From Streptomyces sp. NBC_00525 (lineage in GTDB: Bacteria; Actinomycetota; Actinomycetes; Streptomycetales; Streptomycetaceae), in the NCBI RefSeq assembly GCF_036346595.1, contig NZ_CP107834.1, positions 4,340,001-4,404,000 on the forward strand: DNA of 64,000 bases, in the 5' to 3' direction. Shown here piece by piece: positions 3,250-15,233 of the stretch (the stretch's first letter is position 1; each line of letters starts with the position of its first letter). Below the pieces are notes generated by a model, which saw only the letters and a list, made by a program, of their open reading frames with translations, was not told the origin of the DNA and ran no database searches. A program made the position numbers and the translations under genes.

Positions 3250-3655
3250 GCCGGCGAGCTTACGACTGTGATTCACGGCCCGCCCCGCCTTCGGTGACGG
3301 CCCGGCCCGGCCGGGCGGGGGCGCACGTACGTGCGGGCTTTCATCGCCATGCGCCCGCCTCCCGCGAGCCGTGGGAACGCTGGAAGCGGACGGCGCGCGG
3401 CTTGGAAACGGGTGGTCCGGCGGTGTGACGCACGGGGACGGGTGAGATACGCCACGGAGTGGTACGGAAGGGAGCCTCCGCGAGGTTCGCGTTGACGCTC
3501 ATCCGGGAAGCCGCGCACCCCCGGGCCCGGCGGACGGCCGGAATTCACCTCTTGTGCGGGCCACCCGCGTACGCGAGCATGCGCATGTCAAACCGAAGGA
3601 ACTTCGGTTGCAGAGGGCTGTCGCGCTCTGTTCGTTCGCAAGAGGGGACCCCCAC
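3250..3655. promoter_or_regulatory. Divergent intergenic region, aminotransferase / protease
   Basis: About 400 bases without a convincing gene between two divergent starts. Reading frames across it are Arg/Pro/Gly-rich with no codon bias of a real gene. A small perfect hairpin, AACCGAAG (3591-3598) with CTTCGGTT (3602-3609) and loop GAA, sits about 45 bases before the protease start and would lie in its 5' leader. No clear -10/-35 pair is visible. Confidence 0.5.
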
Positions 3656-4498
3656 ATGAAAAAGCCTCTCGTCGGTGCGCTCTTCGCCGTGCTGCTCATG
3701 GGCGCGGGCATCGCGCCCGCCACCGCCGCTCCGACGCAGGCCCCGGCCCCGGCTCCGGTCCGGGCCGCCGTCGGCTTCGCCGGCACCGTGGCGCTCAGCA
3801 ACTGCTCGGGCTCCGTCGTCCGCACCCCCGCCTCGCAGCCGGACGACCCCGCCCTGGTGCTGTCCAACGGGCACTGCCTGGAGACCGGCTTCCCGGCCCC
3901 CGGCGAGGTCGTGTACAACCGCTCCTCCAGCCGGAGCTTCACCCTGCTCAACGCCTCCGGCCGGGGCGTCGGCACGCTCCGGGCGAGCAGGATCGCGTAC
4001 GGGACGATGACGGACACCGACATATCGGTGTACCGGCTCACCTCCACGTACGCCCAGATCAAGAGCCGCTACGGGATCGACGCCCTGGAACTCAGCACCA
4101 CGCACCCCGTGCAGGGCACCGCGATCACCGTCGTGTCCGGGTACTGGAAGCGCACCTACAGCTGCAACGTGGACGGATTCGTCTACCGGCTCAAGGAGGG
4201 CTCCTGGACCTGGAAGGACTCGGTCCGCTACACCTCCGCCTGCCAGACCATCGGCGGCACGTCCGGCTCGCCGGTGATCGACAACGCCACCGGCAAGGTC
4301 GTCGCCGTCAACAACACCGGCAACGAGGACGGCCTGCGGTGCGCGGACAACAATCCGTGCGAGGTCGACGAGAACGGACAGGTGACGGTCCGCCAGGGCA
4401 TCAACTACGCCCAGCACACCTACGGCATCGCCGCGTGCGTCGGTACCGGCAACGTCTTCGACCTGAACCGCGCCGGATGCACCCTGCCCAAGCCGTGA
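3656..4498 (+). CDS. Secreted trypsin-like serine protease (S1 family)
   Basis: Extracellular serine peptidase of 280 residues. The start ATG at 3656 follows AGAGGGG and gives a clean Sec signal peptide (MKKPLVGALFAVLLMGAGIA, cleavage near ATAA-PTQ). The catalytic triad can be read directly: His73 in SNGHC, Asp120 or Asp122 in TDTDIS, and Ser203 in GGTSGSPV. Cysteines flank the histidine and serine regions, as in secreted actinobacterial S1 enzymes. There is no long propeptide, so it is unlike the SGPB-type proteases. It ends at a very strong bidirectional hairpin. The substrate is unknown. Confidence 0.88.
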   Translation: MKKPLVGALFAVLLMGAGIAPATAAPTQAPAPAPVRAAVGFAGTVALSNCSGSVVRTPASQPDDPALVLSNGHCLETGFPAPGEVVYNRSSSRSFTLLNASGRGVGTLRASRIAYGTMTDTDISVYRLTSTYAQIKSRYGIDALELSTTHPVQGTAITVVSGYWKRTYSCNVDGFVYRLKEGSWTWKDSVRYTSACQTIGGTSGSPVIDNATGKVVAVNNTGNEDGLRCADNNPCEVDENGQVTVRQGINYAQHTYGIAACVGTGNVFDLNRAGCTLPKP

Positions 4499-4504
4499 CG
4501 TGTG

Positions 4505-4550
4505 ACGTGTGAGGGGGCGGGGCCGCGTCCGGCCCCGCCCCCTCACACGT
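4505..4550. terminator. Perfect 20-bp bidirectional terminator
   Basis: The arm 4505-4524 (ACGTGTGAGGGGGCGGGGCC) is perfectly complementary to 4531-4550 around the loop GCGTCC. It separates the convergent protease and DUF1206 genes. Confidence 0.9.
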
Positions 4551-5436: not shown

Positions 5437-7059
5437 CTACGCCGCGCCCGCCGTCCGGCGCACGGAGCGGCCGGCCAGTACCTGCGTACGCCTGCCGTCC
5501 TCGATCACGAAACGGCCGTCGATCAGCACGTGCGGGATGCCCGTCGGCAGGGCGCGCGGCTCGTCGAAGGTGGAGCCCGCCGCCACCGTGTCCGGGTCGA
5601 AGAGCACCAGGTCGGCGCGGTAGCCCTCGCGCACGAGCCCCCGGTCGGGCAGCCGCAGCCGGGCCGCCGGGCGCGCGGTGAGATGGGCGACGCACTCCTC
5701 CAGCGGGAGGACGCCCAGCTCGCGTGCGTAGCGGCCCAGGTAGTGGGGAAAGGTGCCGTAGGCGCGGGGGTGAGGCTTGTCGCCCTGGAGGATGCCGTCG
5801 CTGCCGCCCGTGTGCACCCGGTGGCGCATGATCCGGCGGACGTTCTCCTCGTGGCCGACGTGTTGCAGGATCGTCGTCCCGAGCCGGTCCTCCAGCAGCA
5901 GCCGCCGCGCGACCGTCCAGGGCTCCTCGCCCCGCCGGTCCGCCGACTCGGCCACCGTGAGACCGATGTACGCGGCGAGCGCGGGCTCGCCGGTGCCGGA
6001 GATCTCGATGGTGTCCCACTCGATCGGCACCCCGTGGCAGCCGTCCGAGCCGGTGACCTCCAGGGCGTGGCGGATGCGGGCGGCCGTGTCCGGGCCGGCC
6101 AGCCGGGCCAGGACCGCCGCCGGGCCGCCCTCGCTGGCCCAGCCGGGCAGCAGCGCGGCGAGCGTCGTACAGCCCGGCGTGTACGGGTAGGTGTCCAGGG
6201 AGATGTCGGCGCCCGCGTCGAGCGCCCCGTCCAGCAGGGCGAGCAGTTCGGGGGCGCGGCCCTCGTTGACCCCGAAGTTCATGGTCGCGTGCGCCAGATG
6301 CAGGGCGCAGCCCGCGCTCCGGGTGAGCCGCACCATCTCCTCGTACGCCTCCAGCGCCCCGGCGCCGTACGAGCGGTGGTGCGGGCAGTAGTAGCCGCCG
6401 TGCGCGGCCACCACCCGGCACAGCTCGGTGAGTTCGGCGTCGTCCGCGTACATGCCGGGCGTGTACGTCAGCCCGGACGACATGCCGACCGCGCCCTCGC
6501 GCATGCCCTGGTCCACGAGCGCGCGCATCCGGTCCAGTTCGGCGGCGGTCGCGGGCCGGTCCTCCCAGCCGACCGCGTACATCCGGACCGTGCCCTGCGG
6601 GATCAGATAGGCGGCGTTGACCGCGATGCCCCGGCCGCCGAAGTTGCGGTCGAGCCGGTCGAGGTAGCCGCCGACCGTGCGCCAGTCGAAGTCGATGTCC
6701 TCGCCGTCGCCGTTCCACCCGGCGATGGAGCGGCGGACCTCGGCGAGCGTGCGGTCGTCCACGGGCGCGTACGACAGGCCGTCCTGGCCCAGGACCTCCA
6801 GCGTGACGCCCTGCGCGGCCTTCGCGCTGTGGTCCGGGTCGCGCAGCAGCGCCAGGTCGCTGTGGGCGTGCATGTCGATGAAGCCGGGGGCGAGGGCGAG
6901 CCCGCCGGCGTCCAGGGTGCGGGCGCCGGCGGGACGGGGGCCGGGGGAGTCCTCGCGGTGGATCTCCGCGATCCGGCCGCCGGAGACGGCCACGTCGGCG
7001 CGGTAGGAGGGCGTGGCGGTGCCGTCGATGACGCGGGCGTCGCGGATGACGAGGTCCAT
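5437..7059 (-). CDS. N-acyl-D-amino-acid deacylase family amidohydrolase
   Basis: 540-residue cytosolic member of the D-aminoacylase branch of the amidohydrolase superfamily, which removes the acyl group from N-acyl-D-amino acids or similar substrates. Seen: MDLVIRDARVIDGTA start, HxH metal motif in GFIDMHAHSDL (His64, His66), CPHHRSYG and LHLAHATMNFG histidine regions, SLDTYPYTPG, and HTGGSDGI with the catalytic-type Asp. The segment that in classical D-aminoacylase reads GNCG, supplying a zinc-binding cysteine, reads GQDG here (residues 91-94), so this is a distinct subclass. ATG at 7059 has AAAGG upstream. It lies 36 bases after the deaminase gene and is probably cotranscribed with it. The neighbours suggest the deacetylation step of an amino-sugar acid or D-amino-acid pathway. 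Confidence 0.9.
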   Translation of the reverse strand: MDLVIRDARVIDGTATPSYRADVAVSGGRIAEIHREDSPGPRPAGARTLDAGGLALAPGFIDMHAHSDLALLRDPDHSAKAAQGVTLEVLGQDGLSYAPVDDRTLAEVRRSIAGWNGDGEDIDFDWRTVGGYLDRLDRNFGGRGIAVNAAYLIPQGTVRMYAVGWEDRPATAAELDRMRALVDQGMREGAVGMSSGLTYTPGMYADDAELTELCRVVAAHGGYYCPHHRSYGAGALEAYEEMVRLTRSAGCALHLAHATMNFGVNEGRAPELLALLDGALDAGADISLDTYPYTPGCTTLAALLPGWASEGGPAAVLARLAGPDTAARIRHALEVTGSDGCHGVPIEWDTIEISGTGEPALAAYIGLTVAESADRRGEEPWTVARRLLLEDRLGTTILQHVGHEENVRRIMRHRVHTGGSDGILQGDKPHPRAYGTFPHYLGRYARELGVLPLEECVAHLTARPAARLRLPDRGLVREGYRADLVLFDPDTVAAGSTFDEPRALPTGIPHVLIDGRFVIEDGRRTQVLAGRSVRRTAGAA

Positions 7060-7095
7060 GGGGCCTGGGCCTTTCTCGGGGGCGGGGGGCCCGGC

Positions 7096-8385
7096 TCAGA
7101 AGAAGGTGCGGACGAAGTCGGTGACCGTGCCGTCCGTGTCGACGAGGGGGATCAGCTGCCACTTGTCGAAGCTGGTGCACGGGTGGGACAGGCCCATCCC
7201 CACCCAGTCCCCGACCTCCAGCTCCGCGCCCTCCTCCGTGCGCAGCCAGGTGTGCTGGTCGGACAGGCCGGTGACGGTGATTCCCGCGGCCGGCCGCACC
7301 GAGCCGTCCCGGCCGGAGCGCACCACCTGCGCCTCGGGCAGATCCAGGTCGTACGCCGCGTCCCGCTTGCCCGCGTTGAGGAACGCCTGCCCGGCGGACG
7401 GGCGCGACACCACCTGCGCCCACAGCCGGAACGCCGGTCGCAGCGCGCCCTCCTCGGGCACCCGGTTGAACGGGGTGAGGTGGCGGTAGTGCCCGTCGTC
7501 GTGCGAGACGTAGGCGCCCGAGCGCAGCAGCTTGAGCACGGGGGCGGACAGCTCCGGGATCTCGGCGAACACGTCCGCCACCGCGTCGAACCACGCGCTG
7601 CCGCCCGCGCTGATCACGATGCGCTCGCCGGGCCCCAGCGCGGCGAACCGGCCCGCCGCGTCGAACCCGGCGGCCAGCGCGACGAGTCGGCGCAGCCAGG
7701 CCCGGACCCGCTCGCCGGACGCCTCGGGCACCTCGCCCTCGTACCCGGCGACGCCCACCAGACGCAGCGTCGCCGCCCCGGCCACCGCGTCGGCCACGGC
7801 GGCGCACTCCGCCTCGGTCCGCGCCCCGGTGCGGGCGCCCTCGCCGGCGCCCAGCTCCACCACCACGTCCACCGGGCGGACGGCGCCCGCCGCGCGCAGG
7901 GCCGCGTCCATCAGCTCGACGCCGCGCACGGAGTCGACGTAGCAGACGAAGGTGAGGCCGGGGTCGGCGTCCAGTTCGCCGGCGAGCCAGCGCAGTGCGG
8001 CGGGGTCCACCAGCTCGTTGGCCAGGAAGATCCGGTCGATGCCGAACGCGCGGTAGACGCGCGCCTGGTGGGGGACGGCCGCCGTGATGCCCCAGGCGCC
8101 GTGCTCCAGCTGGCGGGCGAACAGCTGCGGGGACATCGAGGTCTTGCCGTGCGGCGCGAACGCGAGGCCGTGGCGCTCGGCGTACGTCTCCAGGAGCGCG
8201 AGGTTGTGTTCGACGGACTCGGCGGACAGCGCGAGCACCGGGGTGGTGAAGCCGCCGTCGAAGAGGTTCCGGCGCTCGGCGGCCAGCGCGCCGACGGTCA
8301 GGCCCTCGGCGTCGGGCGGGAGGCCCTTGAACCGGTGGTCGACCGGTTCGTCGGCGAGAGCGGTCACGTGGGGCGCGGTGGCCAT
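7096..8385 (-). CDS. Fold-III PLP D-amino acid / amino-sugar acid deaminase
   Basis: 429-residue enzyme related to eukaryotic-type D-serine dehydratase and D-threonine aldolase: an alanine-racemase-like barrel with the PLP lysine in APHGKTSMSP (Lys81) and a C-terminal beta domain with the zinc-type His-x-Cys pair in GLSHPCTSF (His401, Cys403). These enzymes eliminate water or ammonia from D-hydroxy-amino acids and also act on D-glucosaminate. The ATG at 8385 follows GAGGAG; a longer reading to 8436 lacks a ribosome site. It is the promoter-proximal gene of a two- or three-gene minus-strand unit and diverges from the kinase/IclR/RidA operon across a 143-base region with repeat elements. Confidence 0.88.
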   Translation of the reverse strand: MATAPHVTALADEPVDHRFKGLPPDAEGLTVGALAAERRNLFDGGFTTPVLALSAESVEHNLALLETYAERHGLAFAPHGKTSMSPQLFARQLEHGAWGITAAVPHQARVYRAFGIDRIFLANELVDPAALRWLAGELDADPGLTFVCYVDSVRGVELMDAALRAAGAVRPVDVVVELGAGEGARTGARTEAECAAVADAVAGAATLRLVGVAGYEGEVPEASGERVRAWLRRLVALAAGFDAAGRFAALGPGERIVISAGGSAWFDAVADVFAEIPELSAPVLKLLRSGAYVSHDDGHYRHLTPFNRVPEEGALRPAFRLWAQVVSRPSAGQAFLNAGKRDAAYDLDLPEAQVVRSGRDGSVRPAAGITVTGLSDQHTWLRTEEGAELEVGDWVGMGLSHPCTSFDKWQLIPLVDTDGTVTDFVRTFF

Positions 8386-8528
8386 GGGGTCTCCTCGGTC
8401 CGGTCGGCTTACGATTGCAGCATATGCAACACCCATTGCGTATATCGCTCATGGCTGTCTAACATCCGAGCCGACGCCCGGTCAATGGTGAGTGCCGGTG
8501 CCGCCGCCCGACTGCTGAGGAGCCCCGC
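8386..8528. promoter_or_regulatory. Divergent promoter with repeated operator-like elements
   Basis: The region contains ATTGCAGCATATGCAA (8414-8429), whose core TTGCA...TGCAA is an inverted repeat, and a related copy ATTGCGTATATCGC (8435-8448), spaced about two helical turns apart. This A+T-rich block stands out against its surroundings. The IclR regulator encoded in the divergent operon is the natural candidate to bind it. The binding assignment is inference. Confidence 0.55.
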
Positions 8529-9560
8529 GTGTCCGCAACCGCGACCGCCGACGTCGTGTGCCTCGGCGAGTCCATGGTGACGTTCCTGCCCTCGCGCCCC
8601 GGACGCCTCGCCGACGTGCCGTCCTTCGCGCGCGGCATCGGCGGCGCCGAGTCCAACGTGGCCTGCGCGCTCGCCGCCGCCGGACACCGCACGGCCTGGG
8701 TGAGCCGGGTCGGGGCGGACGGCTTCGGCGACCACCTGGTCGGGGCGATCGCCGCCTACGGCGTGGACACCTCGTACGTACGGCGCGATCCGTCGCGGCC
8801 CACCGGGATCTACTTCCGCACGGCGACCGACCGGGCCGCGGACGTCCACGAGGTGGCGTACTACCGGGCCGGGTCGGCCGCCTCGGCGATGTCGCCGCGG
8901 ACCGTGCCGTACGAAGGGCTGCCGCAGGGGCGCGTCCTGCACCTCTCCGGGATCACGGCGGCGCTCTCGGCGGACTGCCTGGCGCTGCTCCGCGAACTCA
9001 CCGCCCCCCGGCCGGGACGGCCGCTCATCTCCTTCGACGTGAACTTCCGGCCGGCGCTGTGGCGGGGCGAGTCCCCCGCCGTCCTGCTCGATCTGGCGCG
9101 CCGGGCGGACGTGGTCTTCGTGGGCGAGGACGAGGCACAGGCGGCGTGGGGCGTCGTGGGCGCCGCCGCGATCCGGGAGGCGCTGCCGGAGCCGGGCGTG
9201 GTGGTCGTGAAGCGCGGCGCCGACGGCGTGACGGTGTTCTCCCGCCCCGCCCCGTGCGGCGGTCCCGACACCGTCACGCACGTGCCCGCGCTCCGGGTGG
9301 ACGTCGTCGCGCCCGTCGGCGCCGGGGACGCCTTCGCCGCCGGGTTCCTGTCCGGGACGCTGCGCGGGCTCCCCGTACGCGAACGGGCCCGGCACGGGCA
9401 TCTGATGGCCGCCGCCGTGCTCACCGTCGCCGGGGACCTCACCGGGCCGCCCGCGCGCGATTCGGCCGACCGGCTCGTCGCCCTGGACGACGACGCCTGG
9501 GGGAGACTGCGTCTCGGCCCCGGCTGGACGGGGGACGACACGGAGGTACGTACGCCATGA
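8529..9560 (+). CDS. PfkB-family sugar kinase, 2-keto-3-deoxygluconate kinase type
   Basis: 343-residue ribokinase-fold kinase. The N-terminus (CLGESMVTFLP, GGAESNVACALAAAG) matches KDG kinases, and the C-terminal PfkB signature reads GAGDAFAAGF with catalytic base Asp267. It would phosphorylate 2-keto-3-deoxygluconate or a similar acid sugar with ATP. The GTG start at 8529 follows GAGGAG. Its stop overlaps the IclR start by four bases (ATGA), indicating translational coupling. A KDG kinase is the expected next step after a D-glucosaminate deaminase, which fits the divergent deaminase and deacylase genes. Substrate identity is inferred from context and family only. Confidence 0.87.
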   Translation: MSATATADVVCLGESMVTFLPSRPGRLADVPSFARGIGGAESNVACALAAAGHRTAWVSRVGADGFGDHLVGAIAAYGVDTSYVRRDPSRPTGIYFRTATDRAADVHEVAYYRAGSAASAMSPRTVPYEGLPQGRVLHLSGITAALSADCLALLRELTAPRPGRPLISFDVNFRPALWRGESPAVLLDLARRADVVFVGEDEAQAAWGVVGAAAIREALPEPGVVVVKRGADGVTVFSRPAPCGGPDTVTHVPALRVDVVAPVGAGDAFAAGFLSGTLRGLPVRERARHGHLMAAAVLTVAGDLTGPPARDSADRLVALDDDAWGRLRLGPGWTGDDTEVRTP

Positions 9561-10315
9561 GCCAGACCGTCGACCGGGCACTGAGCATCCTGCCGCTCCT
9601 CGCCCAGGGGCCCGCCGACCTCGGACGGGTCGCCGACCGCCTCGGCGTGCACAAGTCCACCGCGCTGCGCCTGCTCCGTACGCTCCACGAGCACGGGCTC
9701 GTCTACCGCCAGCAGGACCAGCGCTACCGCCTGGGCGCCCGGCTGTTCGCGCTGGCGCAGGAGGCCGTCGAGAACCTCGACGTACGCGAGATCGCCCACC
9801 CCCACCTCGTCGCGCTCAACGAGAACTGCGGACACACCGTCCACCTCGCCGTGTACGAGGAGAACGAGGTCCTCTACATCGACAAGGTCGAGAGCCGCTA
9901 CCCGGTCCGCATGTACTCGCGGATCGGCAAGCCCGTCGCGATCACCGTCGCCGCCGTGGCCAAGCTGCTCCTCGCCGACCTGAGCGAACCCGAGCGGCGC
10001 GCCATCGCCGACAAGCTCGACTACCCCATGTACACGCCCCGTTCGACGCCCGGCGCCGCCGCGTTCCTCAAGGAGCTGGCCGCCGTACGCGAACAGGGCT
10101 GGGCCACCGACCTCGGCGGCCACGAGGAGTCCATCAACTGCGTCGGCGCCCCCATTCGCGGCGCGGACGGGCGCGTCGTCGCCGCCATGTCGGTCTCCGC
10201 GCCGAACGTGGTGGTCACGGCCGAGGAACTCCTCACCCTGCTCCCCCTGGTCCGTCGCACCGCCGACACCATCAGCCGGGAGTACTCCGGCAGCAACCTA
10301 CCCAAGAAGGCCTGA
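9557..10315 (+). CDS. IclR-family transcriptional regulator
   Basis: 252-residue regulator with an N-terminal winged helix-turn-helix (QTVDRALSILPLLAQ, then VADRLGVHKSTALRLLRTL) and a C-terminal IclR effector domain (LNENCGHTVHLAVYEENEVLYIDKVES, and GAPIRGADGRVVAAMSVSAP). The ATG at 9557 overlaps the kinase stop. IclR proteins are usually local repressors or activators of catabolic operons controlled by an acid metabolite. Here it probably controls both arms of the divergent locus through the repeated elements at 8414-8448. Followed 6 bases later by the RidA gene. Confidence 0.93.
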   Translation: MSQTVDRALSILPLLAQGPADLGRVADRLGVHKSTALRLLRTLHEHGLVYRQQDQRYRLGARLFALAQEAVENLDVREIAHPHLVALNENCGHTVHLAVYEENEVLYIDKVESRYPVRMYSRIGKPVAITVAAVAKLLLADLSEPERRAIADKLDYPMYTPRSTPGAAAFLKELAAVREQGWATDLGGHEESINCVGAPIRGADGRVVAAMSVSAPNVVVTAEELLTLLPLVRRTADTISREYSGSNLPKKA

Positions 10316-10321
10316 ACCGCG

Positions 10322-10732
10322 ATGACCGAAAAGACCGCCCTCACCCCGAGCACCCACACCACCCCGCCGGCCAAGTTCTCGCACGGCGTGCGCAAGGGCA
10401 ACATCCTCCAGGTCGCCGGCCAGGTCGGCTTCCTGCCCGCCGTGGAGGGCCAGGCGCCCACCCCGGCCGGGCCCACCCTGCGCGAGCAGACCCTCCAGAC
10501 CTTCGCCAACGTCAAGGCGATCCTGGAGGAGGGCGGCGCGAGCTGGGACGACGTGATGATGATGCGCGTCTACCTCACCGATGTGGACCACTTCGCCGAG
10601 ATGAACGAGATCTACAACGCGTACTTCGCCGAGCAGGACCTGAAGCAGCCGCCCGCCGCGCGCACCACGGTCTACGTCGGCCTCCCCAAGGGCCTGCTCA
10701 TCGAGATCGACGCCCTCGCGGTCCTCGGCTGA
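10322..10732 (+). CDS. RidA family enamine/imine deaminase
   Basis: 136-residue RidA/YjgF/UK114 protein. RidA hydrolyses reactive enamine/imine products released by PLP dehydratases to the keto acid and ammonia. The family's substrate-carboxylate arginine is visible (Arg114 in PAARTTVYVG) together with the C-terminal glutamate in LIEIDALAVLG (Glu128). It is the last gene of the kinase-IclR-RidA operon. Its presence beside a fold-III PLP deaminase supports a pathway in which that enzyme releases an enamine intermediate. The start ATG lies 6 bases after the IclR stop. Confidence 0.92.
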   Translation: MTEKTALTPSTHTTPPAKFSHGVRKGNILQVAGQVGFLPAVEGQAPTPAGPTLREQTLQTFANVKAILEEGGASWDDVMMMRVYLTDVDHFAEMNEIYNAYFAEQDLKQPPAARTTVYVGLPKGLLIEIDALAVLG

Positions 10733-10762: not shown

Positions 10763-12973
10763 TCAGGCGGCCGAGGCGCAGATGATGCTGCGGCCCTGGT
10801 TGACCGACCAGTACCAGAACCGTTCGCCGGGCCCCGCCGGGCAGGTCCAGTCCTGGCCCGCCTTCGGGGCCCGGTAGAAGCCGGTGATCCGCAGAATCGA
10901 CTGGCCCGCCTTCGGCACCTTCGACGCGTCGCAGCGCCACACCACCGTCAGGTCCGCGTTGGTCTGCCCGTTCACCTTGGCCGGGAAGCACTGGCCCGCC
11001 CGGTAGACCCGGTCCAGGCACAGCGTCCGCGTGATCCCGTCGTCGCCCTCGCGGCTCCACCAGGTGAAACCCACCCCGGTGTCGCAGGAGCCGGAGGCAC
11101 CGGCCCGGGTGCTCACCCGGTTGACGTGCATGTACGCGTTCGAGGCGCTGCACCGCACCCGGACCGGGTGGTCGGCGCTCATGTTGCCGTAGCCGTCGTT
11201 GTACACGTCGAGGCAGTCGCCCGCGTGCACGGCGGCGAACGCCCGGTCCGTCGCGTCCATGGTCGGCGTGGGTGTCGGCGTCGGGGTGGGCGTGGGCGTC
11301 GGGGTCGTGTCGTCCGTATCGGTGTCCGAACCGGACGAGACCCGCTCCGTCGAGCCGCCCCCGCCGCTCCCGGTGTCCGGGTCGGTGCCCGTGCTGTCGT
11401 CGGCGTGCGTGTCGAGGCCACTGCCCGAGGTGACGGAGCCGGACGCGCTGCCCCCCGACGACGAACCGCCCCCGCCCGCCTTCTCCCACGGCTGCCATGT
11501 CAGCAGCCCGGCCACCACCACGAGCGCGACCAGCCAGCCCAGGACGGACGACGAGGAACCGGTGCGCGCGGGTGCGGGCTCCGGCACCGGGGTGGGCCGG
11601 GCGGCCCGCTCCGCGCGCTGCCGGGCCGCCCGTTCCCGGTCCGCGCGCTCGCGCTCGGCCCGTTCCCGCGCGGCGCGGGCCCTGGCGGCGCGCCCGGCCT
11701 CCTGGCGGGCCGCCTCCCGCCGCGCCGCCTCCTGCCGGGCGGCCTCGCGGCGGGCCGCCTCCACGCGCTCCCGTTCGGCCTGCCGCTCCGCCTCGGCCCG
11801 CTGCCGCTCCTCCCGGTCGGCCTGCCGGCGGGCCCGGATCTCGGCCTCCTCGCGCTCCGCCTGTTCGCGCTCGGCGCGCTGACGCTCGGCCAGCTGAGCC
11901 AGGGCCGCCATCTCGCGGCGGGTGCGGTCGCGGTCGGCCCTGGCCTGCCGCTCCGGTGAGTACACCAGGGTCGGCGGCGGCTGCGGGACGACACGGGTGC
12001 GCCGGGTGGTGGCCGGGGCCCGCGACGGGCCCGCGTCGCGGCCGCCCGCCGACTCCCGGCCGCCCGCCCACTCCCGGCCCTGCGCGGCGTACGCCTCGAT
12101 CAGCGCCGTCCAGCGCGGCGGCAGCCACCGGGCGCCGCTCGTCGTCGAGGGCTGCCCGGCCTGCTGCGCCCGGAAGCGGGCGAGTAACCCGGCGGGCGTC
12201 GGCCGGTGCCGGGGCTGGACGGCCAGGCACGGCCGGATCGTCTCGACCAGCTCCTTGGGCAGGCCGGTCAGGTCGAGCTCGCCGCGCTGCACCCGCGCCA
12301 GCAGCCGCAGCGTGTCGCCGTCGGCGCGGTAGGGCGCCCGGCCGGTGGCCAGCAGGAAGAGCGTGGCGCCCAGCGAGTACACGTCGGACGCGGCGGTGGA
12401 CTCCTCGCCGCGCGCCTGCTCCGGTGAGGTGAAGGCGATCGTGCCCAGGGTGAGGCCGGTCAGGGTGAGGTCGCTGGCGTGCGAGATGCCGAAGTCGATG
12501 ACCCGGGGCCCGTCCAGCGGCAGCAGCACGTTCTGCGGCTTCACGTCGCGGTGGACGATCCCCACCCCGTGCAGGGTGGCCAGGGCCTCGGCGGTGCCGG
12601 CCGCGATCCACCGTACGGCCGATGCGGGCAGCACCCCGCAGGAGCGCACCAGTTCGGAGAGCGGGGGCGCGGCGATGTAGTCGATGGCCATCCAGGGGCG
12701 CTCGGCGCGCGGATCGGCGTCCAGGACGCGGGCGGTGAAGGCGCTGTCCACGCGCTGGGCGACCGCCACCTCACGGGCGAAGCGCCGCCGGTCGGTGTCG
12801 CCGACCCGGCCCTCCGCGAGCAGCGTCTTGACGGCGACGAGCCCGCGGCCGTCGCCGCCGCGGGCCAGATAGATCCGGCCCATGCCGCCGGACGCCAGCC
12901 GCCCGAGCAGTCGGTACGGCCCGAGGGTCGCCGGATCGTCCCCGCCCAGCGCATCGATCCGCGCCCCGGCCAT
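10763..12973 (-). CDS. Membrane Ser/Thr protein kinase with extracytoplasmic C-terminal domain
   Basis: 736-residue PknB-type kinase. Kinase domain roughly residues 18-280: glycine loop LLGRLASGGMGRIYLA, VAVKTL (Lys49), HRDVKPQN and DFGISH. A long Arg/Glu/Ala-rich coiled-coil-like stretch follows, then one membrane helix (about 478-494, GWLVALVVVAGLLTW), a Ser/Gly/Asp linker, a Thr-Pro repeat (about 556-571) and a 150-residue outside domain with six or so cysteines that resembles LppU-like Streptomyces proteins (tentative). The ATG at 12973 is preceded by GGGAG; an upstream extension to 13162 lacks one. Codon 263 (12185-12187) is a TTA leucine codon, so translation should need the bldA tRNA. 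It probably senses a cell-wall or external signal; the ligand is unknown. Confidence 0.9.
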   Translation of the reverse strand: MAGARIDALGGDDPATLGPYRLLGRLASGGMGRIYLARGGDGRGLVAVKTLLAEGRVGDTDRRRFAREVAVAQRVDSAFTARVLDADPRAERPWMAIDYIAAPPLSELVRSCGVLPASAVRWIAAGTAEALATLHGVGIVHRDVKPQNVLLPLDGPRVIDFGISHASDLTLTGLTLGTIAFTSPEQARGEESTAASDVYSLGATLFLLATGRAPYRADGDTLRLLARVQRGELDLTGLPKELVETIRPCLAVQPRHRPTPAGLLARFRAQQAGQPSTTSGARWLPPRWTALIEAYAAQGREWAGGRESAGGRDAGPSRAPATTRRTRVVPQPPPTLVYSPERQARADRDRTRREMAALAQLAERQRAEREQAEREEAEIRARRQADREERQRAEAERQAERERVEAARREAARQEAARREAARQEAGRAARARAARERAERERADRERAARQRAERAARPTPVPEPAPARTGSSSSVLGWLVALVVVAGLLTWQPWEKAGGGGSSSGGSASGSVTSGSGLDTHADDSTGTDPDTGSGGGGSTERVSSGSDTDTDDTTPTPTPTPTPTPTPTMDATDRAFAAVHAGDCLDVYNDGYGNMSADHPVRVRCSASNAYMHVNRVSTRAGASGSCDTGVGFTWWSREGDDGITRTLCLDRVYRAGQCFPAKVNGQTNADLTVVWRCDASKVPKAGQSILRITGFYRAPKAGQDWTCPAGPGERFWYWSVNQGRSIICASAA
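11261..11308 (-). repeat. Degenerate hexanucleotide repeat encoding (Thr-Pro)n
   Basis: About eight 6-base units of the GTCGGC/GTGGGC type (plus strand) encode the Thr-Pro linker of the kinase. Such repeats are prone to length change between strains. Confidence 0.75.
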
Positions 12974-13169: not shown

Positions 13170-14894
13170 TTACGGCAGGTTGTGGACGTGCGGGCCGACC
13201 GCGTTCGACCAGGCGTTGCCGGCCGTGGCGTCCCAGTTGGTCGACCAGGTCATCGCACCGCGGAGACCGGGGTAGGTCTTCGACGGCTTGAAGTTGCCGC
13301 AGTTGGTGCCCTGGGTCAGGCAGTCCAGCGCCGCGTTCACGATCGACGGGGAGACGTAGCCGCTGCCCGCGCCGCGGGTGGAGGCGGGGACGCCGATGCC
13401 GACCTGCGACGGGTCGAGGCCGCCCTCCAGCTGGATGCAGGCGAGCGCGGTGAGGAAGTCCACCGAGCCCTGCGAGTAGACCTTGCCGTCACAGCCGAGC
13501 ATCGCGCCGCTGTTGTAGTACTGCATGTTGACGACGGTCAGGATGTCCTTGATGTTGAGCGCGGTCTTGAAGTACTCGCCACCGGTGGACTGCATGTCGA
13601 TGGTCTGCGGGGCCATCGTGATGACGAGGCCGGGGCCGGCCTTCTGCGACAGCGAACGCAGCGCCTTCGTCATGTACGTGGAGTTGAGGCCGTTCTCCAG
13701 GTCGATGTCGACGCCGTTGAAGCCGTACTCCTGGATCAGCGTGTACAGCGAGTTGGCGAAGTTGTTCGCGGACGCCTCGCTGTTGACCGAGACCGTGCCC
13801 TTCTCGCCGCCGACCGAGATGATGACGTTCTTGCCGGCCGCCTGCTTCGCCTTGATGTCGGCCTTGAACTGGGCGACGGTGTAGCCGTTCAGGCCGGCCG
13901 TGTCCAGGTTGAAGGTGACGGCACCCGGCGTGGACGTGGCGTCGGCGAAGGAGACCGCGATGATGTCGTAGTTCGCGGGCACGTCGCTGAGCTTCTGGAC
14001 GGTCGCGCCGTTGTTGAAGTTCTGCCAGTAGCCGGTCACCGCGTGCTTCGGCACCGAGGTGTCGGGGATCGTGCCCCCGTCCTTGGCGGTGCGGCCGCTG
14101 ACGGCCGCCGACTTCGCGGACTCGCCGGCCTTGTTGGTCGCGCTGACCGCGAACTGGTACGCCGTGTCCGCGGAGAGGCCGCTGATGGTCGCCGAGGTGC
14201 CGGTGGTGGTGGTGGCCTTCACGCCGTCCTTGTAGACGGTGTAGCCGGTCGCGCCGGACACCGCGTTCCAGGACAGGTTGATCGAGGAGGCGGTGGTGGA
14301 GCCGACCGCCAGTCCGGCCGGGGCGCCGGGGATCGTCGGGCCGGGCTCCTCGGTGCCGCCGCCGTCGGGGCCGGTGACCGCGAGGTCGTCCACGTAGTAG
14401 GCGGCCTGGCCGTACCAGCCGTGCGTGTACACGGTGACGGACGTGGTGTTGGCGCCGGTGGTGAAGCTGGTCTTCAGCTGGGTCCAGCCGGTGGAGCCCG
14501 GCGACCAGGTCGAGACGTCGGTGGTGCCGGTGCCGCTGGCGCCCAGGTAGGCGTAACCGCCCTGCACCCAGGAGCTGAGCTGGTACGTCGAGTTGGGCTT
14601 GACGGTGACGACCTGCGAGCACTTGGCGTTGTCCAGGCCGGCCGGGGAGGCCTTGAGCGCGGAGGTGCCGCCGTGCACGGGGGAGGAGACCGCGGCACCG
14701 GAGTTGCCGGTGCAGGTCCAGTTGGCGAGGCCGGACTCGAACCCGGCGTTCTTCGCGACGTTGATGTCGGCGGCCTCGGCGCTGGTGACGAGCCCGGTGA
14801 GGGTCAGCGCGCCGGCGGCCACAACGGCCATGGCGGAGCCGAGGACCGGGCGCGTACGCCGTCGTCTCGGGCTCGATGCGGGGGAACGATCCAC
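13170..14894 (-). CDS. Secreted GH18 chitinase with CBM and fibronectin III domains
   Basis: 574-residue extracellular chitinase that cleaves chitin beta-1,4 links. Order: basic signal peptide (RRRRTRPVLGSAMAVVAAG, cleavage near SAEA), a carbohydrate-binding jelly-roll (about 41-180, FESGLANWTCTG), one fibronectin III module (about 195-275) and the GH18 barrel (about 290-574). The active-site strand reads FNGVDIDLENG with catalytic Glu400 and Asp396/Asp398; the first Asp of the usual DxxDxDxE is Asn393. The GTG at 14894 has GGAGG six bases upstream, better than an ATG at 14978. The promoter contains a DasR-type operator, so it is probably repressed by DasR and induced by chitin-derived amino sugars. 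Two hairpins follow the stop. Confidence 0.92.
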   Translation of the reverse strand: MDRSPASSPRRRRTRPVLGSAMAVVAAGALTLTGLVTSAEAADINVAKNAGFESGLANWTCTGNSGAAVSSPVHGGTSALKASPAGLDNAKCSQVVTVKPNSTYQLSSWVQGGYAYLGASGTGTTDVSTWSPGSTGWTQLKTSFTTGANTTSVTVYTHGWYGQAAYYVDDLAVTGPDGGGTEEPGPTIPGAPAGLAVGSTTASSINLSWNAVSGATGYTVYKDGVKATTTTGTSATISGLSADTAYQFAVSATNKAGESAKSAAVSGRTAKDGGTIPDTSVPKHAVTGYWQNFNNGATVQKLSDVPANYDIIAVSFADATSTPGAVTFNLDTAGLNGYTVAQFKADIKAKQAAGKNVIISVGGEKGTVSVNSEASANNFANSLYTLIQEYGFNGVDIDLENGLNSTYMTKALRSLSQKAGPGLVITMAPQTIDMQSTGGEYFKTALNIKDILTVVNMQYYNSGAMLGCDGKVYSQGSVDFLTALACIQLEGGLDPSQVGIGVPASTRGAGSGYVSPSIVNAALDCLTQGTNCGNFKPSKTYPGLRGAMTWSTNWDATAGNAWSNAVGPHVHNLP

Positions 14895-15233
14895 TTGCTG
14901 CCTCCGGGGGGAGTCGGGGATGGCGGGGGGACGACACGGGGGGTGCCGGGGTGTGTGGAATCGAGGAACGGTGGCCACCGCTGGCCGATAAACTGGTCCA
15001 GACCAATCGAGTTGTCAAGACCTCTGGCAGTCTCCGGCCCTACGAGGAAGGCCGGTTTGCCCGAAGAGTGCGGTGGGAAGACCCCGTTTTCCTTGCCCCG
15101 CAAGCTTCTTGAAGGTGTTCTCTCGTCCTGCCGTACGTGGATAAAGTGCTCAGGCGGGAGCATCCGAGCGGAAGCACCCGGCAGGAGCGAGTGCGGCCGG
15201 CGGTACGCGGCGGCCCGAGGAACGGGGAACGGC
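14895..15233. promoter_or_regulatory. Divergent region, chitinase / Tad locus
   Basis: 339 bases between the chitinase GTG (minus) and the zinc-ribbon gene (plus). It holds the chitinase promoter with the DasR-type box (separate entry). No open frame here looks coding. Promoter elements for the Tad side are not evident. Confidence 0.6.
14994..15018 (-). promoter_or_regulatory. DasR-responsive element within the chitinase promoter
   Basis: TGGTCCAGACCA (14994-15005) is an inverted repeat matching 14 of 16 positions of the DasR dre consensus as I recall it (ACTGGTCTAGACCACT) when its flanks are included. On the minus strand a perfect -35 hexamer TTGACA (15013-15018 complement) lies just upstream, so the operator occupies the promoter spacer. 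DasR binding is inferred. Confidence 0.75.

Follow-up and report, generated by a model that had tools for sequence, protein, structure and literature searches.

Probable core genes for the catabolism of C1-oxidised chitin ends in Streptomyces and other Actinomycetes

What becomes of the oxidised chain end of chitin in Streptomyces, major soil chitin degraders that are rich in AA10 lytic polysaccharide monooxygenases (LPMOs)? The question is raised by five genes of Streptomyces sp. NBC_00525, encoding a D-aminoacylase-like deacylase, a pyridoxal phosphate (PLP)-dependent ammonia-lyase, a PfkB kinase, an IclR-family regulator, and a RidA-family protein. They lie in a window of 64,000 nucleotides, the whole stretch of DNA analysed here (G000:C1:4340001-4404000 of a 7.1-Mb genome). 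A prediction made from the nucleotides without database searches (the original prediction) had read the cluster as an amino-sugar-acid route to 2-keto-3-deoxygluconate (KDG)-6-phosphate (KDPG) rather than D-amino-acid catabolism, and open reading frames (ORFs) with Pfam/NCBIfam matches placed all five genes where it had put them. We conclude, with a probability of about 0.78, that these genes form the core of an actinobacterial pathway that breaks down the C1-oxidised chitin end unit, 2-acetamido-2-deoxy-D-gluconate (GlcNAc1A).

A pathway for this compound has been described in marine Pseudoalteromonas prydzensis ACAM 620. According to excerpts of PMC9537276, OngB deacetylates GlcNAc1A, OngC deaminates the product GlcN1A to KDG, KdgK makes KDG-6-phosphate, and the RidA protein OngD is required in vivo. 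Oxidised oligomers are split by OngA, a GH20 enzyme, and growth on GlcNAc1A or on the dimer depends on all five proteins. The same excerpts report a screen for at least four co-occurring genes at more than 30% identity, which placed ong clusters in Gammaproteobacteria and one Betaproteobacterium. In its excerpted text, an Arthrobacter paper (PMC13106269) cites the marine pathway only, and one on Aeromonas (PMC11653859) states that this pathway could not be confirmed there. Among openly licensed PMC papers, we found no report of this route or of the fate of the oxidised chain end in Streptomyces.

The four enzymatic roles of the ong set occur together in the window, assigned by family and not by orthology. 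We used as reference the ong proteins of a P. shioyasakiensis plasmid, whose OngB aligns without gaps to the characterised PpOngB over residues 1 to 484. Compared with these, identity is 28.5% for the deacylase of the window, 31.6% for its PLP enzyme, 26.2% for the kinase, and 26.8% for RidA. Only the PLP enzyme exceeds 30%, which means that the screen of PMC9537276 would probably have missed the locus. The PLP enzyme shares PHGKT and SHPC motifs with OngC; its ORF is open to 8436, but translation more likely begins at the ATG at 8385, where the ribosome-binding context is better by eye. The best NCBIfam matches of the kinase, KDG/KDGal kinase and IolC, are both under cut-off (159 bits for the top match, NF040938, against a cut-off of 400), and its best solved relative bears the name 2-keto-3-deoxygluconate kinase (E 3e-46). 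The IclR gene start overlaps the kinase stop. In claiming "just this enzyme set" of Pseudoalteromonas, the original prediction went too far: the deacylase subfamily, the regulator (IclR versus RpiR), and the transporters differ.

Table 1. Genes, operator parts, and neighbouring features in the window, with proposed roles
Feature	Position	Strand	Basis
Deacylase, Amidohydro_3, D-aminoacylase-like, Asp replacing Cys metal ligand; proposed GlcNAc1A deacetylase	5437..7059	-	profile match, alignment
Fold-type III PLP ammonia-lyase (D-ser_dehydrat + Ala_racemase_N); proposed D-glucosaminate dehydratase, OngC-like	7096..8385	-	
Operator part 1, palindrome TTGCAGCATATGCAA	8415..8429	.	TTGC-N7-GCAA conserved in divergent promoter
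Operator part 2, CATTGCG, fixed spacing from part 1	8434..8440	.	two-part site 8415-8440 recurs at eda
PfkB kinase, proposed KDG kinase	8529..9560	+	family match
IclR-family regulator (BhcR/KdgR-like), probable regulator of gene set	9557..10315	+	family match
RidA-family protein, counterpart of OngD	10322..10732	+	family match
GH18 chitinase, CBM_4_9 + fn3 domains; neighbour outside cluster	13170..14978	-	domain matches
dre-like box TGGTCCAGACCA, upstream of GH18 chitinase, 1 mismatch to DasR consensus	14994..15005	.	

We surveyed the surroundings of related deacylase genes in 51 loci, 24 from Streptomyces (the window and 23 others) and 27 from other organisms. Near the Streptomyces deacylase genes we found the PLP gene in 24 loci, RidA in 24, IclR in 23, the kinase in 22, the gluconate symporter GntP in 15, and the KDPG aldolase gene eda in none. 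The co-location of the five-gene set in Streptomyces is not chance. The 27 other loci, several of which end at contig boundaries, have RidA in 21, PLP in 12, kinase in 11, IclR in 9, GntP in 5, eda in 4, ROK in 2, and a DgaE-type gene and GH20 in 1 each. On a Tsukamurella plasmid, a 61%-identical deacylase belongs to a cluster arranged as RidA-IclR-kinase | PLP-deacylase-eda-GntP. In one genome (locus L088 of G393, 10972-12102), a DgaE-family (SelA-like) PLP enzyme replaces the fold-type III deaminase beside a deacylase of the same clade. We take DgaE-type chemistry to be conversion of glucosaminate to a 2-keto-3-deoxy acid.

These neighbours bear on the most obvious alternative, ordinary D-amino-acid catabolism, in which the deacylase would free D-amino acids, the PLP enzyme would deaminate D-serine or D-threonine, RidA would clear 2-aminoacrylate, and the kinase would be incidental. 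The solved relatives nearest by sequence are a D-aminoacylase for the deacylase and a D-serine deaminase for the PLP enzyme; OngC itself accepts D-serine and D-threonine, as excerpted from PMC9537276; and the GntP family includes the D-serine carrier DsdX, a weaker match. What this alternative leaves unexplained is the conservation of a KDG-type kinase in 22 of the 24 Streptomyces loci, the eda gene adjacent in Tsukamurella-type loci, and two further features described below, a GH20 fusion and an operator common to eda. We regard it as improbable.

The fusion links the deacylase directly to a glycosidase. In Microbacterium (G257, L055 ORF 5542-8853), deacylase and GH20 form one 1103-residue frame, with Amidohydro_3 at 83-549, GH20b at 582-684, and GH20 at 692-1027. 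A database entry for this protein (P0126) carries the name Microbacterium sp. M28. Next to the fused gene in G257 lie genes for two ROK proteins and one resembling glucosamine-6-phosphate isomerase. There are 317 long relatives at E<=1e-60; the best 120 of these 317 all have PF07969 and PF00728, and the organism-named ones among them are Microbacterium, save one unclassified actinomycete assembly.

The cluster also shares an operator with unlinked eda. A palindrome, TTGC-N7-GCAA, is present in all 22 Streptomyces PLP-kinase intergenic regions compared (the two of 24 loci without a kinase match were left out) and is followed by CATTGCG or a near form in those regions listed. A search with the palindrome alone gave few sites and unrelated loci, so we used the two-part pattern TTGC-N7-GCAA-N4-CRTTGCG with at most one mismatch in 61 Streptomyces genomes. 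This returned 151 matches versus 59 for a reversed control, with at least one match in 57 of the 61 genomes; because of this high one-mismatch background, our counts include only exact sites or sites backed by the identity of the adjoining gene. Among the matches listed, 22 genomes, including that of the window, have at least two exact sites. These total 45 sites, 22 at the PLP-kinase promoter, 21 at eda, and 2 elsewhere (L195 and L266, near IclR-like genes at 33-34%). Thus, 21 of these 22 genomes carry an exact operator upstream of unlinked eda, its first base 44-134 bp ahead of the eda start as extrapolated from alignment. The genome of the window has a single PF01081 match, the eda gene near C1:1650182, and the operator there occupies 1650147-1650172. 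Two one-mismatch sites (L217 and L218) are also at eda, and two others that we fetched (L269 and L270; G648 and G631) are beside none of the sought genes. A separate sequence, TTGCATGCCATGCAA, occurs twice, 3 kb apart, in the genome of the window (L150 sites 3301 and 6436; G000:C1:1845300 and 1848435) and is again paired in G171; the pair is perhaps the operator of another regulator.

Could the operator instead mark a general KdgR-like KDG regulon for uronate polymers such as pectin and glycosaminoglycans, with the deacylase and PLP enzyme otherwise employed? The IclR protein does resemble KdgR (E 1e-43, under the model's cut-off), and the kinase and eda are KDG genes. We found no KduI, KduD, or GH88 in Pfam scans, which sampled neighbours only, and the other operator-bearing operon consists of GH20 and an ABC importer, with no uronate enzymes. 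This makes a uronate regulon very improbable indeed.

That other operon carries a variant of the operator. Among the matches listed, 19 one-mismatch sites end in CGTTTCG, and a GH20 gene follows every one of them. Eighteen head an operon of a substrate-binding protein (SBP), two permeases, and GH20, and the remaining one (G651) precedes GH20 alone; one more SBP operon (L147) came from the earlier palindrome search. The genome of the window has such an operon (site C1:2229293), whose 544-residue GH20 begins directly at the GH20b domain with no evident signal peptide. Of the 18 operons, 16 have a dre-like box with at most three mismatches 48-49 bp from the variant site (16 of 19 counting L147); those of L224 and L227 have none. 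In a shuffled control, 26 of 380 sequences reached at most three mismatches anywhere in 200 bp. The operon GH20 is 42.7% identical to the fused Microbacterium GH20 and 36.1% identical to P. shioyasakiensis OngA over 357 positions. An excerpt of PMC10067821 reports that the GH20 enzyme SmCHB goes no further than chitobionic acid; the route would therefore require a GH20 that can cleave this compound. In both genomes read for this, genes for molybdopterin-dehydrogenase FAD and 2Fe-2S subunits adjoin the ABC/GH20 operon (L221:1941-4174 and L222:2373-4828).

D-amino-acid catabolism offers no explanation for the links to the kinase, to eda and GntP, to GH20, and to the operator. The original prediction's central proposal is supported at the pathway level, with eda and GntP in Tsukamurella, the GH20 fusion, the DgaE-family substitution, and the shared operators behind it, while the catalytic activities are those we infer for the encoded families. 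The evidence is good for a substrate of the N-acyl 2-amino-2-deoxy-aldonate class that is broken down to KDPG, and GlcNAc1A from chitin is the best candidate within that class, as judged from these gene associations.

Several observations weigh against this assignment to GlcNAc1A, the first of them in the deacylase pocket. Excerpts of PMC12017989 identify PpOngB (PDB 9kb1) as a GlcNAc1A deacetylase with mapped metal- and substrate-binding residues. We compared 12 rows of the clade of the window deacylase (P0001) with it, in PpOngB numbering. His68, His70, Tyr194, His222, His252, Tyr285, Asp368, and Arg379 are kept. The Cys/His/His metal site of OngB is not: in all 12 rows Cys97 is Asp, with both metal His retained. 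Other binding residues are lost as well (Leu116 to Trp, Glu226 to Tyr, Lys254 to Thr, Ser291 to Cys, Ser292 to Thr, and Gln298 to Arg, or Ala in one row), and Ser290 is likewise changed in the window deacylase. At the OngB specificity positions Ser292/Gln298/Ala193/Ala256/Gly348, the window has Thr/Arg/Thr/Asn/Val; positions 116, 298, and 348 adjoin alignment gaps. In a tree of 47 rows, the P0001 clade (18 rows) forms one branch (100/100) apart from a likewise well-supported OngB branch of 3 rows with one Klebsiella row inside. That row comes from a Klebsiella plasmid (L240, 2574-5434), where a divergent amino acid deaminase stands with an OngB-like D-aminoacylase that groups with Vibrio OngB. 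A search of 345 Actinomycete genomes found no OngB-like protein at E<=1e-90, a threshold far beyond which both known carriers scored. The deacylase is thus a separate subfamily, as judged by sequence; Asp97, Thr254, and the separate clade rule it out as an OngB orthologue, and with its altered pocket GlcNAc1A is a putative substrate.

The pocket departs from D-aminoacylases too. As excerpted, PMC12017989 assigns the Lys254 position to holding the alpha-carboxylate in D-aminoacylases and OngB alike; the window has Thr there and Asp at the metal site, not the Cys/His/His site and carboxylate Lys that are hallmarks of these subtype V amidohydrolases. On the other side, an 85%-identical protein from Streptomyces sp. 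87E3 carries the name D-aminoacylase, for which our literature search found no account of an assay. A third amidohydrolase lineage, with His at the Lys254 position, accompanies PLP and RidA genes in L034/L037 and L061 (G268 and G225), to which G268 adds IclR, kinase, and eda genes; a route of this type may thus have come together yet another time.

Further points on the same side concern distribution and regulation. With membership of the P0001 clade set at E<=1e-130, a cut chosen in this analysis, the clade occurs in 32 of the 33 Streptomyces genomes sampled and in 28 of the 312 from other Actinomycetes; for AA10 the figures are 33 of 33 and 70 of 312. The genome of the window has 7 AA10 genes. 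Outside Streptomyces, 15 of the 28 carriers also have AA10 (Fisher p 0.00016), and 13 do not; the association comes from one family (f84, 13 of 13; elsewhere 2 of 15), so we do not use it as main support. The co-occurrence suggested by the original prediction is mixed, complete for AA10 in Streptomyces and partial among other carriers. Outside Streptomyces the full set is not found everywhere: no PLP gene of this type is seen at more than half of the 27 loci. The window cluster has no adjoining GntP, and the sole GntP-like match of its genome is 39% identical. The palindrome is absent from all LPMO loci of that genome, and because the second half of the GH20 site is different, its binding protein could be another member of the IclR family. 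Four deacylase-carrying Streptomyces genomes have no operator match at one mismatch or less; there the operator has drifted or is absent. Of 16 extra Streptomyces chosen for having 0-2 operator matches, 15 have the clade, including all four without a match. G504 has neither deacylase nor operator site; G555 keeps the deacylase with no kinase or IclR adjoining and only one stray one-mismatch site; and G670 has no close deacylase, its retained PLP gene having a one-mismatch site ahead.

Some of these points would fit a related amino-sugar acid route with a natural substrate other than chitin-derived GlcNAc1A, such as a different N-acyl hexosaminate or GlcNAc1A that sugar oxidases, not LPMOs, produce. 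Carriers without AA10 and a pocket unlike that of OngB are what it would predict, and GntP alone would suffice for uptake of a free aldonate. Yet beta-linked N-acetylhexosamine oligomers and control by chitin are indicated by the fusion to GH20 and by the GH20 operon, which has a similar operator and dre-like boxes. The single genome in which a DgaE-family enzyme takes over indicates the glucosaminate configuration. We consider such a route unlikely.

A chitinase near the locus, with a DasR-type operator, had formed part of the original case. Both are present, the GH18 gene 2.4 kb past RidA and the box upstream of it, scored against the DasR (dre) consensus. As an argument the proximity is weak, since a similar GH18 gene occurs in only 9 of the 24 Streptomyces loci, a count that includes the window and comes from loci read over a limited length. 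The cluster's own promoter contains no dre-like box (the best match has 6 mismatches), and DasR control of that promoter itself finds no support. Elsewhere in the window, a 333-residue ORF at 3545-4546 (minus strand) has no Pfam/NCBIfam match but has relatives close to the deacylase gene at several Streptomyces loci.

In the route that we favour, from GlcNAc1A to KDPG, AA10 LPMOs and chitinases would release oxidised chitobiose, which an ABC importer encoded elsewhere in the genome would take up. The GH20 enzyme, apparently cytoplasmic, would split it to GlcNAc and GlcNAc1A, and the GntP symporter beside the cluster in many species may import GlcNAc1A itself. The deacylase would then strip acetate, the fold-type III enzyme would remove ammonia to give KDG, with RidA probably clearing the enamine/imine, and the PfkB enzyme would make KDPG, which the product of unlinked eda would cleave to pyruvate and glyceraldehyde-3-phosphate. 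Control would lie with an IclR-family protein, probably the one encoded in the cluster, which would bind the common two-part operator and presumably repress these units. On balance we also favour, somewhat less firmly and as a single joint proposal, an independently assembled oxidised-chitin regulon in Actinomycetes, including Streptomyces. A DasR-like box and an IclR-type operator would govern the chitobionate importer and cytoplasmic GH20, the same kind of operator would govern an Asp-liganded GlcNAc1A deacetylase family, D-glucosaminate lyase, KDG kinase, and eda, and the Microbacterium fusion would be bifunctional, converting chitobionate to GlcNAc, GlcN1A, and acetate.

This result supplies named genes and a testable operator for the fate of the oxidised chain end in Streptomyces. 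It suggests that GlcNAc1A deacetylation arose more than once from the D-aminoacylase fold. The mainly gammaproteobacterial view in the excerpts of PMC9537276 may reflect a screen bound to marine sequences, and the Streptomyces route would be reached with other enzymes and another regulator than the marine one, if the activities predicted from sequence hold.

Compared with known systems, the DgaE system performs the same kind of chemistry; the Streptomyces locus differs by its fold-type III enzyme, and phosphorylation there presumably follows deamination. The D-aminoacylases AfDam (1m7j) and BbDam (3gip) are among the best matches of the window deacylase to solved structures, and it shares Thr at the Ser292 position and, as in BbDam, Arg at the Gln298 position. 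It differs from both in its metal ligand, in the Thr that stands for the carboxylate Lys, and in the logic of a cluster with KDG kinase and eda. PpOngB is likewise a D-aminoacylase-like amidohydrolase, with eight binding-site residues in common and differences at Cys97, Ala193, Glu226, Lys254, Ala256, Ser290-292, Gln298, and Gly348. The ong cluster of P. prydzensis has the same deacylase, fold-type III deaminase, RidA, and KDG kinase roles, the deacylase subfamily being different in Streptomyces, where eda is under the operator. A GH20 enzyme that acts on oxidised oligomers belongs to the ong cluster; here a GH20 that may have this activity is linked by fusion in Microbacterium or stands under a variant operator in Streptomyces. 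Where the ong cluster has a MurR/RpiR regulator and SSS and TonB-dependent transporters, we found IclR with GntP and ABC transporters, in loci and not in a genome-wide search for SSS or RpiR.

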